43,994 nucleotides of DNA, taken from IMG/VR virus record IMGVR_UViG_3300020215_000081, positions 1 through 43,994 of that record. The stretch is one strand, 5' to 3'. The position numbers and the translations under genes were made by a program. The stretch's first letter is position 1. Every line of letters starts with the position of its first letter. This document shows, one piece after another, positions 7,007-24,285 of this stretch. The DNA is from a virus. The notes beneath the pieces are model-generated. The model searched no databases. It was not told where the DNA came from and saw only the letters and a list, made by a program, of their open reading frames with translations.

Positions 7007-7429
7007 ATGGCTCCAAGCATTCGCGGACATAACGGGACGATCAAGCTCTTCCAAGACGGCGCGATCGTCGGGATCGTGGACATCACGAGCGTCGATATCA
7101 AGCAGGACTCGAGCTTCTCGCGCGCGTTCTACGTCGGCCGGCCGGTTCCGGAGGGCGATCAGACGATCGAGGGCTGGTCTGGCTCGCTCGAGACCGAGGT
7201 CAAGGACGCGGAGGTGGACAAGTTCATCGATGCGCTCGTGACCAACAACCTGGCTGGCATCGGCGTGTCCGACTACACGTTCGTCACGACCGAGAACTAT
7301 CCGGACGGCCGCTCGCAGAGCTACGTCTACTTCGACTGCCAGTTCAAGATGAGCCGGAAGCAGGGCGGTCTGAACGAGAAGATCGTCAAGACGCTCGAGT
7401 TCCAGGCCTCGGGAAGGCAGGCGCTCTAA
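7007..7429 (+). CDS. Tail tube protein
   Basis: A 140-residue protein beginning after AAGGAAAGGACTAACAG. The sequence is beta-rich (GTIKLFQDGAIVGIVDITSVDIKQ, QSYVYFDCQFKMSRKQGG) and of the normal size for a myovirus tube monomer. It lies directly after the sheath gene. Hexameric rings of this protein would form the inner channel through which the tape measure and then DNA pass. No unusual insertion is present. Confidence 0.85.
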   Translation: MAPSIRGHNGTIKLFQDGAIVGIVDITSVDIKQDSSFSRAFYVGRPVPEGDQTIEGWSGSLETEVKDAEVDKFIDALVTNNLAGIGVSDYTFVTTENYPDGRSQSYVYFDCQFKMSRKQGGLNEKIVKTLEFQASGRQAL

Positions 7430-7430
7430 C

Positions 7431-7607
7431 ATGGGAATGCAGATGCGCAAGTCCCTCGAGAAGCAGAAGGCCAAGGTGGCGAAGGCCGCGGCCGGCCCTG
7501 CCGAGCTCGAGGGCTCCAAGGAAGGGTCGAAGAAGCCTGCCGGCGACAAGTCGGCGACGAAGAAGCCAGGCGACAAGCCTGCTGCCCCGAAAGGGGCCGC
7601 GGAGTAA
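7431..7607 (+). CDS. Small lysine-rich protein after tail tube
   Basis: A 58-residue protein that starts one base after the tube stop codon. It opens with MGMQMRKSLEKQKAKVAKAA and continues as a low-complexity Lys/Gly/Pro/Ala tail (KKPAGDK, KKPGDKP). It has no hydrophobic segment or cysteine. The composition matches 2912-3052, suggesting two related small basic proteins placed after highly expressed structural genes. Its real existence rests on codon pattern, spacing and the immediate downstream location. Function unknown. Confidence 0.6.
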   Translation: MGMQMRKSLEKQKAKVAKAAAGPAELEGSKEGSKKPAGDKSATKKPGDKPAAPKGAAE

Positions 7608-7621
7608 CCCGCGAGACGGAT

Positions 7622-7701
7622 GGGGCCGTAGCTCAGTGGCTAGAGCACCTTCGCGCGATATCGCGCGACGGTTGTCGGGGGTTCGACTCCCTCCGGCCCC
7701 A
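7622..7701 (+). tRNA. tRNA-like gene with aberrant anticodon arm
   Basis: The acceptor stem is a perfect 7 bp (7622-7628 with 7694-7700), U8-A9 are present, the D arm is GCTC/GAGC with GG in its loop, the variable loop TTGTC is a normal 5 bases, and the T arm has loop TTCGACT. The anticodon arm, 7648-7671, is 24 bases instead of 17. It contains an 18-base perfect palindrome (7651-7668) centred on GATATC, leaving no 7-base loop with U33 before an anticodon. CCA is not encoded. It lies between the tail tube/Lys-rich genes and the chaperone gene. It may be a decoy, an RNA-processing signal in the late mRNA, or a decayed tRNA. Confidence 0.7.
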
Positions 7702-7736
7702 CCCCTCTCGCAATCCATCGAGAAAGGAAAAGTGAG

Positions 7737-8078
7737 ATGGACAACGCAGTGAACGCGATCCGAGTCGTGCTCGGATCCAAGAAGGTCGTCATGCTCCGGG
7801 AGCCCAAGATCCGGGACCAGGAGATGGCGATGCAGGTAGCGGCCAGCAAGTCGAAGGACAACGCATTCCTCTTGGCGACCAAGTCCAATGCGGAGCTCCT
7901 GAAGATCCTCCTGCTCGAGGTCGATGGGCGCCCGATCGCGCGCTCGGAGTGCGAGCAGCTCGACGCGCTCTTTTCGCTCGCCGAGTTCAATCAGCTCCAG
8001 CAGGTCGTCGGCCAGCTCTCGGGGGGCACTGATATGGGGGAGTTCCAGATCGAACACGCAACCTCTGGAGGCAAATAG
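7737..8078 (+). CDS. Tail assembly chaperone (short form)
   Basis: A 113-residue protein after GAGAAAGGAAAAGTGAG. It stands between the tube and tape measure genes, the place of the G/GT (lambda) or E/E' (P2) chaperone pair that coats the tape measure during tail assembly. Its sequence is acidic-helical (SNAELLKILLLEVDG, LFSLAEFNQLQQVVGQL), consistent with the role. As in those phages an overlapping second frame follows, described separately at 8033-8203. Family membership is inferred from location, size and the two-frame design. Confidence 0.65.
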   Translation: MDNAVNAIRVVLGSKKVVMLREPKIRDQEMAMQVAASKSKDNAFLLATKSNAELLKILLLEVDGRPIARSECEQLDALFSLAEFNQLQQVVGQLSGGTDMGEFQIEHATSGGK

Positions 8079-8203
8079 CCTGGCTGTGCCGCTACACGAG
8101 CCTGCGGCCGGCTGACATCCTGGATCTGACGGCAACGCAGTTCCGGATCGTATGCGAGCAAGTGGCTGATCTCCTCTCCAAGGAGTCAGGAAGGGAATCC
8201 TGA
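8033..8203 (+). CDS. Chaperone extension in -1 frame (recoded)
   Basis: The -1 frame relative to 7737-8078 is open from 8033 to the TGA at 8201-8203, exactly before the tape measure ATG at 8204. From about 8063 it reads like real protein: LWRQIAWLCRYTSLRPADIL and then DLTATQFRIVCEQVADLL, similar in feel to the T part of GT chaperones. No ATG, GTG or TTG occurs in this frame before it, so it needs ribosomal frameshifting or an unusual start. The best slip point is GGG at 8037-8039, which re-pairs as GGG one base back. A GGAGG at 8067-8071 could instead support restart near the overlapping stop codon. Confidence 0.6.
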   Translation, partial: YGGVPDRTRNLWRQIAWLCRYTSLRPADILDLTATQFRIVCEQVADLLSKESGRES

Positions 8204-10060
8204 ATGGGTCTGGGTCCGCAAGTTTTCACTGTCCTAACCGAATTCCGTTTCGACATTGGGAACGCGGTCGTCAACTCCCGTGCGGTTCAAGACGCGGTCG
8301 GCGGCATCTCGGCTGCCGCCGACAACGCGCTGCTCTCGTTCCAGCGCCTCTCCGCGGGCCTGGTCGCCTCAATGGGGCTCGGTACGGGCGGAATCCTTGG
8401 GGTCATGCACACGGCGATGCAGGCCTCCGACAAGTTCGGCCAAAGCCAACGCGCGCTCGCCAACATCTTCCTCTCCAATAACCTCTTCAAGGGCGCCGAC
8501 TCATTTGAGCAGGCGATGGCCGCTGCAGCGAAGAACATGGAGGTCATCCGCAACAAGGCTCAGGGCCTCTCGCTGCCGGCGGGCGACATGCTCACCACCA
8601 CCAAGCTCATCGGAGCGAGTCTCGTTTCCCACGGGCTCGACGATGCCTCGCTTCACCGATCGACGGAGATCGCGCGCGGGTTCCTCAAGTCCGCTCCCAT
8701 CCTCGGCATCGACCCGAGCCTCGCCCAGGGCCAGCTCCTCGATGCGGCGATGGGTCGCGCCTCGATGGGTGACACGTTCATGCAGCGGCTCATGAACGAG
8801 ACTTCGGAGATGAAGCAGTTCAAGGGCAACGCGCAGGCCTTCAACGCGCTCCCCGACGCCAAACGAATCCAGACGCTCACTGCGGCACTCCTCCAGTTCG
8901 GGAGCAACACGAAAGTGGTCGAGGCGAACGCGCGCTCGCTCTCGGGCGAGTTCCAGCGGCTCAAGGACTCGCTCTTGGGCACGTTCTCGATCCTCCGCCC
9001 TATCGGCGACGTCATCAACGCCGCGGTCGTCCCGACCCTTCATCGCGTGAACAATTTCCTCCAGAAGGAGGGGGCGATCATCGTCAAGCACTTCGCCAAG
9101 ATCATGGAGGGGATGGTCACCCATGCCGAAACGACGCTCGCGACCCTGATGCAGGCGCGCGCGCTCAACCAGGATCTCAAGCGAGCGGGCCTCCTGACGT
9201 TCCTCTACGGTCTCGCGCTTGGGGCCGTGGCGATCATGAAGTACTTCGGGATCGCAACGTCAGTGCTCAGGCTCTTCGGCGTGGGGCTCCTGTCGCTCGT
9301 CACCACGCTTTGGACCGGCCTGGTCGCCTTTGGCTCCTGGGCGGCGCGCTTGGCGATCTTTGCAACGGGAGCGACCTCCTTGGGAGCGGCGCTCTTCACG
9401 CTCGCCAACGGGTTCGTGATCCTGGCTTCGCGGATCCTGGTGCCGCTTGCGATCGTGACGACCGTGCTCCAGCTCATCTCGCGGGCGATCGCGATCGCAC
9501 GGATCGACGACGTCAAGGCGCTCGCCAACGCGATGGGCGAGATCACGCGGACGATCGCCAAGCTCAAGGTCGGCTTCATGCACGTCGCGCGACCGTTCCT
9601 CGAGATTTTCGATGCCATCGCGCGCGGGATCGCGCCGGTCTTCAAGTTCTCCTACTACCTCGAGTACCTGGTCTCCGTGCTCGACTTCGCAGGCGATGTG
9701 CTGATCGCGGCCCAGGCGGGCCTCAACGGGGTCTTCTTCGCGATCTTCCAGTTCGTCGAGAACATCGTGAACCTGGTCAGGGGGCAGGGGAGCCTGAACA
9801 TCTTCAAGGGCATCGGCGACGCGTTCAACGCCGGGATCGATACCACGATCGACGAGATCATGAAGAAGATCGAGTCGGGCGACGCGGTGATGAACCAGAC
9901 GACGAACATCGCGAAGGTGGAGATCAACAACGCCTTCAAGGAGCAGATGGAGCCGGACCGGATCGCGTTCACGCTGCAGGATCAGCTCCTCAAGGTCGCC
10001 GCGAACCGCGGACAGTCTTCAGGCCGGAGCCTTCGCGCGGCTGAAGTGGGAGGATTCTGA
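8204..10060 (+). CDS. Tape measure protein
   Basis: A 618-residue protein after AGGAAGGGAATCCTGA. It is mainly helical, Ala/Leu-rich, with a hydrophobic stretch about residues 325-430 (FLYGLALGAVAIMKYFGIA, LSLVTTLWTGLVAFGSWA, GFVILASRILVPLAIVTTVL), typical of tape measures that span the tail and may enter the host membrane. Length sets tail length; by the usual 1.5 angstrom per residue rule the tail would be roughly 90 nm. It follows the chaperone frames directly and overlaps the next gene by one base (TGATG). Confidence 0.88.
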   Translation: MGLGPQVFTVLTEFRFDIGNAVVNSRAVQDAVGGISAAADNALLSFQRLSAGLVASMGLGTGGILGVMHTAMQASDKFGQSQRALANIFLSNNLFKGADSFEQAMAAAAKNMEVIRNKAQGLSLPAGDMLTTTKLIGASLVSHGLDDASLHRSTEIARGFLKSAPILGIDPSLAQGQLLDAAMGRASMGDTFMQRLMNETSEMKQFKGNAQAFNALPDAKRIQTLTAALLQFGSNTKVVEANARSLSGEFQRLKDSLLGTFSILRPIGDVINAAVVPTLHRVNNFLQKEGAIIVKHFAKIMEGMVTHAETTLATLMQARALNQDLKRAGLLTFLYGLALGAVAIMKYFGIATSVLRLFGVGLLSLVTTLWTGLVAFGSWAARLAIFATGATSLGAALFTLANGFVILASRILVPLAIVTTVLQLISRAIAIARIDDVKALANAMGEITRTIAKLKVGFMHVARPFLEIFDAIARGIAPVFKFSYYLEYLVSVLDFAGDVLIAAQAGLNGVFFAIFQFVENIVNLVRGQGSLNIFKGIGDAFNAGIDTTIDEIMKKIESGDAVMNQTTNIAKVEINNAFKEQMEPDRIAFTLQDQLLKVAANRGQSSGRSLRAAEVGGF

Positions 10061-22934: not shown

Positions 22935-23010
22935 TGGTGCCCCGGGCTGGACTCGAACCAGCAACGCGGCGATTTTAAGTCGCCTGTCTCTGCCATTGGA
23001 CTACCGGGGC
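22935..23010 (-). tRNA. tRNA with anticodon UAA (Leu), short variable loop
   Basis: On the minus strand the cloverleaf is complete: 7-bp acceptor (GCCCCGG/CCGGGGC), D stem GTCC/AGAC with one mismatch, anticodon stem GGCGA/TCGCC with loop CTTAAAA (anticodon TAA), 5-base variable loop GCGTT, T stem GCTGG/CCAGC with TTCGAGT, discriminator A and an encoded CCA (22935-22937). Leu tRNAs normally have a long variable arm, so the charging identity is uncertain. It lies six bases beyond the integrase stop codon, on the same strand. Confidence 0.92.
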
Positions 23011-23016
23011 GCCCAG

Positions 23017-24285
23017 CTACTTCTGTAGCAGGCTCGCCATCGTTTGCAAGGATCGCGCGGTGTTGATCTTGCCGGCGTAGTGCTTGCGCATGACCTCGAC
23101 GTTGTCGCCGATCTGGTTGGCGGCGAAGACGTCGTTCCCGGTCTTCTCGATGATGTAGACGGCGTGAGAGGCGCGGAGCATGTGGAGCGCCTTGTACTCC
23201 CGCTGCGCGTCGAGATCGGGGATCGAGTCGTCGTCGAAGAAGAAGCCCTCGCCCTCCTGGTCGCCGGAGCCTTTGGTCTGGAAGAGCTTCTGACAGAGCT
23301 CGTGGACGAGGCGGGCGCCGCGGTAGCGGTAGCGATCGCGGTCCTCAAGCTTCGGATAAGCTTTGAGCCACTTGGCGAGCGCCTGAAGGGTCGCCTCTTT
23401 GTCGAGCGGCACGACCGGCCGGCCGTGCTTGTTCTTGGTGGTCCGGACGCGCGTGCCATCCGGGTTGGCCGCGGAGCTCTGGACGAACTGGCGCTGCACG
23501 TTCACGACGACGATCCCGTTGGCCTTGACCACGTCGGCCTTCTCGAGCGCGAGCGCCTCGCTGATCCGGAGGCCGAGGTTGAAGAGGATCACCAGGAGCT
23601 CGCGCATGAGCGGGTAGCTCTCGAGCACGTCCGCGGGGACCGCCTCGACCAGGGCGTGGAACTGCTCCTTGGTCAGGTAGGCCGGCATCTTCTTCTCGAA
23701 CTCCTTCATCCGGAGCTTCTCCGCGTCCTGGTGCCGGTTGATGTACCGGAGGAGCGCGCGAGCCGCCTTGTAGAGCTGCTTGAAGCCGCCCTCGGACTCC
23801 TTGGCGTTCAGCCGGCGCTGGATCTCATTGACGGAGGCCCTGGCGAACGGCTGCGGGCCGAAGAGGCTCGCGAGGCGCCAGAAGGTATTGCGCTCGGACT
23901 CGCGCGAGCAGGGGAGGATGTCCACCTTCACGTCGATCCGCTCCTTGCAGTACCGCTCGACGAGCTCGAGGTTGTCCCGGTTGAGCTGGGAGAGCTTCGC
24001 CTTCCGGATCTCGGCGTAGAGCTCCTCGCGGATCTTGAGCAGCTCGCGCTTGCCGGCGACGACGGTCAGGGCGCCCGAGGCGAACCGCTCGTTGAGCTCG
24101 AGCAGCTCGGGCGTGACGTGGTTGGAAGACTTGCGCTTGCCCTCGGGCGTCCACTCGACTCGCAGAAGCGAGAAGGAGGCGCGGCCCTTCATCCACGGAC
24201 CTTTGGGGATGAAGTGGATGTCCTGGTGGACCTCGGGGATCGAAGCGCGACGACGGACGCGAGACTTATGAGCTTGCCCTCTCAT
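23017..24285 (-). CDS. int: Tyrosine integrase
   Basis: A 422-residue recombinase. The catalytic domain starts near residue 203. Arg240 (GLRISEALAL), Lys near 284-286 (TTKNKHG), His368-x-x-Arg371 (HMLRASHAV) and the nucleophile Tyr403 (MRKHYAG) are all visible. The usual second His/Trp, after Gly393 in QIGDNVEV, is Asp394, which is unusual. Residues 1-200 hold the arm-binding and core-binding regions. It integrates the phage genome at attP/attB. A start at Met32, with AAAGGT before it, is an alternative. The region 24286-24691 with its repeats probably contains attP or its arms. Confidence 0.93.
   Translation of the reverse strand: MRGQAHKSRVRRRASIPEVHQDIHFIPKGPWMKGRASFSLLRVEWTPEGKRKSSNHVTPELLELNERFASGALTVVAGKRELLKIREELYAEIRKAKLSQLNRDNLELVERYCKERIDVKVDILPCSRESERNTFWRLASLFGPQPFARASVNEIQRRLNAKESEGGFKQLYKAARALLRYINRHQDAEKLRMKEFEKKMPAYLTKEQFHALVEAVPADVLESYPLMRELLVILFNLGLRISEALALEKADVVKANGIVVVNVQRQFVQSSAANPDGTRVRTTKNKHGRPVVPLDKEATLQALAKWLKAYPKLEDRDRYRYRGARLVHELCQKLFQTKGSGDQEGEGFFFDDDSIPDLDAQREYKALHMLRASHAVYIIEKTGNDVFAANQIGDNVEVMRKHYAGKINTARSLQTMASLLQK

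Follow-up and report, generated by a model that had tools for sequence, protein, structure and literature searches.

A tRNA-like element without an anticodon loop between tail genes of a phage, a probable structured boundary of the late mRNA

The DNA analyzed here, referred to as the window, is a virus contig of 43,994 bases from IMG/VR. On its plus strand, at positions 7622–7701, between the genes assigned to the tail tube and to a tail assembly chaperone, it carries an element in which the acceptor, D, variable and T parts of a tRNA are all canonical, while a palindromic hairpin takes the place of the anticodon arm. The element is probably a structured intercistronic boundary of the late mRNA, acting in cis, since a tRNA body is retained without its decoding end, occupies fixed intercistronic slots and is exchanged with hairpins in relatives.

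The tRNA-related nature of the element is confirmed by a covariance-model search: cmscan reports an RF00005 match at 7622–7701 (+) with 49.5 bits, the gathering score being 29, and ARAGORN calls it "tRNA-???", with a four-base "anticodon", atat, and no isotype. A custom model, R1, assigns 69.1 bits to the window element, which is itself part of the R1 training set. The acceptor stem (GGGGCCG/CGGCCCC) is paired at 7 of 7 positions, and T8 and A9 are present; the D-stem (GCTC/GAGC) is accompanied by A14, G15 and G18G19; the variable loop, TTGTC, includes C48, the Levitt pair being G15-C48; the T-stem (GGGGG/CCCTC) is paired at 5 of 5 positions, with one G-U, and its loop reads TTCGACT. The discriminator A is followed by CCC, and CCA is not encoded. 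Paired acceptor, D and T arms and the elbow nucleotides are thus found as in a decoding tRNA. This cloverleaf is based on the covariance model and on covariation across elements, not on the minimum free energy (MFE) fold of the single sequence; when the element is folded alone and unconstrained, some bases of the D- and T-arms are paired otherwise. ARAGORN finds no tmRNA in the window, and no site resembling an intrinsic terminator, a GC stem running straight into a T tract, is present at the element, whose 3' side reads ACCCCTCTCGC.

Positions 27–43 correspond to 24 nt at 7648–7671 (+), CCTTCGCGCGATATCGCGCGACGG, instead of the 17-nt arm with a 7-nt loop and U33 of decoding tRNAs. They include an 18-nt palindrome, TCGCGCGATATCGCGCGA, and no U33-anticodon-purine loop, as already read in the preliminary description and confirmed here from the sequence. 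The predicted fold of the arm consists of an AUAU loop, a 7-bp closing stem, one mismatch and 2 bp, with an energy of -14.4 kcal/mol (z -3.3), equalled in stability by 3 of 200 shuffles. No exact match to the palindrome is found elsewhere in IMG/VR. An assembly error is unlikely, because the element is not a one-off.

The gene upstream (7007–7429, +) follows a tail-sheath gene (phrog_279/phrog_23). Its product is assigned as the tail tube by this position and by Foldseek matches of a structure model to tail tube and Hcp-type tube proteins, with E values down to 3e-5; the first version of the model had low confidence, raised to moderate by a deeper alignment. Downstream of the element, a leader (7712–7736, +), including the Shine-Dalgarno-like AGAAAGGAAAAG and, in common with the relative L003, AAAGGAAAAGTGAGATGG, precedes a putative tail assembly chaperone gene (7737–8078, +), in turn followed by a putative tape-measure gene (8204–10060, +; 618 aa). 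Neither of the two has a PHROG or Pfam match: they are assigned from order, size and an overlapping G/GT-like second frame of the chaperone gene, open to a stop at about 8203, just 5' of the tape-measure start. A second frame such as the one at 7737–8203 (+) is typical of the programmed frameshift product of tail chaperones. In most records of the family a relative of the 7737–8078 gene is found at the same place, and the tape-measure gene is conserved. The localization of the element between the tube and the chaperone/tape-measure genes is therefore confirmed, but the tube gene is not its direct neighbor: a small ORF of 58 aa (7430–7606, +), with no PHROG or Pfam match, separates the two. This ORF is absent in L003 and L004, where the element begins 12–16 nt past the tube stop codon.

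A further tRNA is located at 22938–23010 (-) of the window, beginning a few bases past the end of the integrase gene (23017–24285, -). It is a tRNA-Leu(UAA), but its variable loop is short and not Leu-like. In the relative L061, a similar gene end is followed by a tRNA-Leu(UAA) whose variable arm has the normal, long form. Of the 652 Leu codons counted in the main window ORFs, only 6 are TTA.

On both sides of the tRNA-like element, the complementary segments GCGAGA (7611–7616, +) and TCTCGC (7706–7711, +) are predicted to form a 6-bp helix, clamping the element. Taken alone, the window clamp has a p of 0.02; it is part of the MFE fold, with z -5.1. The clamp measures 8 bp in L003 and likewise in L062, and is missing from L004; taken together with the window, p is 3e-4. 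In the whole element set, a clamp helix is not enriched as a general trait.

A search with the tube protein returned 13 relatives, and one with its alignment 44 loci. Within this family, three phages only feature the element in the tube/chaperone slot: the window phage; L003/L016, at 86% tube identity, whose element scores 47.6 bits with RF00005 and has a 25-nt arm, CTCGCG-13-CGCGAG; and L004/L017, at 73% tube identity, with a 23-nt arm forming a 7-bp stem. The L004 element, at 28.5 bits, falls just under the Rfam threshold. A 17-nt arm of normal type, which would have spoken against the preliminary reading, is thus seen in neither relative. As the window, L016 and L017 group together, with moderate support, in a tree of concatenated tube and sheath (0.65; 0.89 for sheath alone), a single gain of the element, followed by divergence, is plausible. 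A fourth family member, L062, features a 25-nt stretch replacing the anticodon arm; its element is encoded by the opposite strand and comes after replication-like genes. A weak further element, L347 (record G034, 2857–2937, -; 23.9 bits with R1), does not share the strand of the tube gene; no clear gene match is seen between its site and that of L062.

Among the 36 other relatives, 23 have a significant stem-loop in the same slot; the sequences of these stem-loops are unrelated and come with or without a T tract, and the relatives without one mostly have short slots. Since relatives have stem-loops where the window has the tRNA-like element, the idea that the element marks an operon boundary is supported. 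In the annotated phage collection, searched at the DNA and protein levels, neither the element nor the tube has relatives, nor was the tube protein found in 84,980 genomes.

Similar elements were looked for in the virus collection by a pattern where only parts of the D-arm and the T-loop are fixed, and the gap is 4–9 nt above normal. Five of the matches listed shared a tight position between two small structural genes, leading to the recognition of a second phage family, described by an upstream-protein search (39 loci, 19 distinct element sequences). The element is present in every readable locus with at least 45% identity (24 of 24), and in L214, lying 7–12 nt past the stop codon of one gene and 10–21 nt ahead of the start of the next, which matches a major tail protein PHROG. 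The more distant relatives do not feature the element; several, when read by eye, show plain hairpins. Covariation within the second family alone is 0.81 for the 19 distinct sequences, compared to 0.24. No relatives of the second-family proteins were found in the annotated phage collection.

In three loci of the second family (L195, L208, L209), the Shine-Dalgarno AAGGAG is found directly past the stop codon, and none is present between the element and the AUG, 10 nt after it; a folded element would accordingly bring the two together. The candidate split ribosome-binding sites are located at 2477–2577 in L195 and at about 2828–2928 in both L208 and L209. In L187, L191, L197, L203, L204, L207 and other loci of the family, the arms enclose a mini-hairpin, its loop being GACG and its closing pairs variable. 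Two candidate traits of the elements at large were discarded: the GACG loop, frequent in the second family, shows no enrichment elsewhere, and an extra CC at 74–75 is clear in the second family only.

Among the matches listed, 113 distinct elements were parsed, including four from the family of the window. All seven acceptor pairs are formed in 79 of these 113, as opposed to 1.3% with shuffled partners, and only 8 of the 113 have a canonical anticodon arm. For 85 good elements among the same matches, the Levitt pair 15:48 is G15-C48 in 32, A15-U48 in 33 and a mixed C/U type in 7, the search pattern limiting position 15 to A or G and leaving position 48 free; the p for this covariation is 3e-13, or 5e-12 when similar arms are left out. 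In an alignment of 57 elements, also from the matches listed, 97.8% of the helix cells are paired and covariation is 0.85, against 0.18 in shuffles; these 57 were partly chosen for their good stems, so the figures from the 113 elements are less biased. Arms with a closed stem of at least 5 pairs are more common than in shuffles (30% vs 4%, among the matches listed). No acceptor identity pair is enriched across the set, whose acceptor stems show no isotype identity. The preservation of the L-shape by selection, anticipated in the preliminary description, is thus supported by the covariation of acceptor, T-stem and Levitt pairs; as acceptor stems and Levitt pair covary while the anticodon arm is free, selection appears, at the sequence level, to keep the L-shape and not decoding.

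Elements with long arms make up only a small part of the phage tRNA matches: when gaps of 26–40 were allowed, the first 127 matches listed were nearly all 27–28 long, with none of 32 or above. A complete scan of bacterial and archaeal genomes (257 Gb) gave only 100 matching stretches, with a good tRNA body in 49 of the 90 parsed. Long-arm elements differ from canonical phage tRNAs by being more often solitary (53 of 85, among the matches listed, vs 21 of 116) and by less often encoding CCA (16 of 85, likewise among the matches listed, vs 59 of 116). Diverse neighbors in the wider set, together with the 32 elements, of the 85 among the matches listed, found near other tRNAs, do not establish a single role for all of them.

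As to self-dimerization through palindromes, a reading set aside for the class, palindromes of at least 8 bases are found in 23 of the 113 arms among the matches listed, only a modest excess by rough estimate, partly contributed by related elements. Arm palindromes of 8–12 nt occur in L077, L079, L082, L092, L094, L103, L123, L164, L168, L177, L179 and L183; an AACA-like motif mostly comes next, and in several of these loci late-regulator-like genes are located upstream. In this subset a dimerizing loop is possible. One palindromic element was searched for in the annotated phage collection, where no relatives were found; in Streptomyces phage Dagobah, which shares the capsid with L100, no element is annotated after the capsid gene. 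A tRNA-like element of non-decoding type is also conserved in chromosomes, mostly those of Chitinophaga and its relatives (genome contigs L356, L361, L375, L378, L388, L390, L399, L404, L424, L427), where it follows Thr-Tyr-Gly-Thr tRNAs, shortly 5' of the EF-Tu gene; it could be a leader element of the tuf mRNA.

The role proposed for the window element is that of a non-decoding, tRNA-like part of a polycistronic late mRNA, acting in cis. The part under selection is the top of the tRNA, that is the acceptor/T stack and the D-T elbow, while the anticodon arm would merely close the fold, a task for which any hairpin may do. At the tube/chaperone junction the element would replace the plain stem-loops of the relatives, probably doing the same job: a compact, exonuclease-resistant boundary may let the tube message and the chaperone/tape-measure message differ in stability and translation. 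Free acceptor sequences do not imply any single synthetase, and hypervariable arms do not imply a common trans target; for both reasons, action in cis fits better than either aminoacylation or a target in trans. Extended to phages of several lineages, the proposal is a more tentative one: full non-decoding tRNA folds may serve as cis-regulatory intercistronic elements, setting the expression ratio of virion genes and, in some cases, bridging a split ribosome-binding site.

A cutting step may be added to the boundary, with which it is compatible: host RNase P would cut at 7621/7622, with RNase Z or exonucleases acting after 7701, so that the chaperone message would begin at a new 5' end, apart from the tube mRNA. 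Such cutting is possible, but rather doubtful. RNase P is known to act on hisCD mRNA, phi80 M3 RNA and phage C4 RNA (PMC10731613, PMC11143913), and the window element has known determinants, namely 12 stacked acceptor/T pairs, the T-loop and an ACC 3' end in agreement with the RCC rule (PMC10731613). U occupies N-1 in the window, just as in 41 of 85 elements among the matches listed and in 62 of 116 canonical phage tRNAs; in the second family, in contrast, 15 of 18 have a purine (A or G) there, often able to pair with N73. Moreover, the clamp predicted in the window, L003 and L062, where leader pairs with trailer, would hinder RNase P, and in L195, L208 and L209, where the only Shine-Dalgarno is upstream of the element, a 5' cut could not be tolerated, because it would remove this site from the next gene. 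Clamp helix and upstream Shine-Dalgarno both argue against obligatory cleavage. A serious, though rather unlikely, rival places the effect on the downstream gene: the fold would act as a leader, raising initiation, or bridging a Shine-Dalgarno split off from its AUG, in the manner of the intercistronic hairpins that affect initiation at T4 genes 25 and 38 (PMC3014915). In L195, L208 and L209, the element is indeed found between Shine-Dalgarno and AUG. A tRNA set in cis 5' of a Shine-Dalgarno is reported to increase translation 2- to 6.3-fold in vitro (PMC9142559), which also agrees with the boundary acting in cis; the next gene in the second family is the one for the major tail protein, and the Chitinophagaceae element is 5' of the EF-Tu gene. 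In the window, however, high abundance is not expected of the chaperone encoded downstream, whose start is 35 nt from the element, compared to 10–21 nt in the second family. Boundary, cutting and leader are not mutually exclusive, and the confidence given to each overlaps with that given to the others.

Three further explanations are much less probable. Decay of a tRNA gene to a functionless remnant, having lost its anticodon loop, could account for the low score of the L004 element, but is very improbable: acceptor, T and Levitt pairs covary in many lineages, slots are fixed, and the one at issue is kept at both 86% and 73% tube identity. A decoy RNA for tRNA-cutting defence nucleases had been suggested, and phages do counter anticodon nucleases; the suggestion finds no support and deserves slightly less credit still, as no anticodon loop is offered, arms vary in sequence and length from phage to phage, acceptors carry no isotype identity, and the elements are built into late structural operons. 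A role as DNA, for instance as an integration site of tRNA-gene origin, has the faintest likelihood. Tyrosine recombinases do use tRNA genes, and the window integrase adjoins the other tRNA; but the integrase is 15 kb away from the element, which is found among structural genes, and acceptor and Levitt pairs covary as RNA pairs. The boundary acting in cis is accordingly preferred.

Compared to canonical tRNAs (RF00005), with which it shares acceptor, D, variable and T parts, elbow nucleotides and Levitt pair, the window element differs by the 24-nt hairpin arm, the absence of anticodon loop and isotype, and the position among structural genes. The mascRNA of MALAT1 is also a tRNA-like 3' end of a longer transcript with an abnormal anticodon arm, but it is eukaryotic, and the window element scores 15.4 bits with the mascRNA-menRNA family (RF01684), whose threshold is 42.5. 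The hisCD hairpins, phi80 M3 RNA and C4 antisense RNA are simpler than a full tRNA body. They resemble the element as tRNA-like or hairpin structures within bacterial or phage RNA (PMC10731613, PMC11143913); unlike these simpler structures, the window element features the full body and is an RNase P substrate only putatively. The yjdF riboswitch also presents a tRNA L-shape in cis, in the leader of a bacterial mRNA (PMC9142559); the window element, in contrast, belongs to a phage structural operon and shows no sign of the yjdF ligand junction, nor is the yjdF family among its Rfam matches up to E 10. The T4 hairpins of genes 25 and 38 are similar to the elements of L195, L208 and L209 in lying between Shine-Dalgarno and AUG; they are, however, plain hairpins, and the window differs in that its Shine-Dalgarno comes only after the element. 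While cis-acting tRNA-like elements are known, one that retains the whole tRNA body, has another hairpin for its anticodon arm, marks an operon junction and recurs in phages appears to be new: in the open-access papers searched, tRNA-like elements of non-decoding type are not described between structural genes of phages.

ARAGORN, run on the 85 elements among the matches listed, labels 30 as "tRNA-???" and misses 17; a class of phage regulatory RNAs may therefore be hidden among odd tRNAs. If confirmed, these elements would be a case of a tRNA body kept by selection without its decoding end, a counterpart in bacterial viruses of the tRNA-like elements of eukaryotic transcripts, and a test case, provided by nature, for the action of tRNA-shaped leaders on ribosomes and nucleases.
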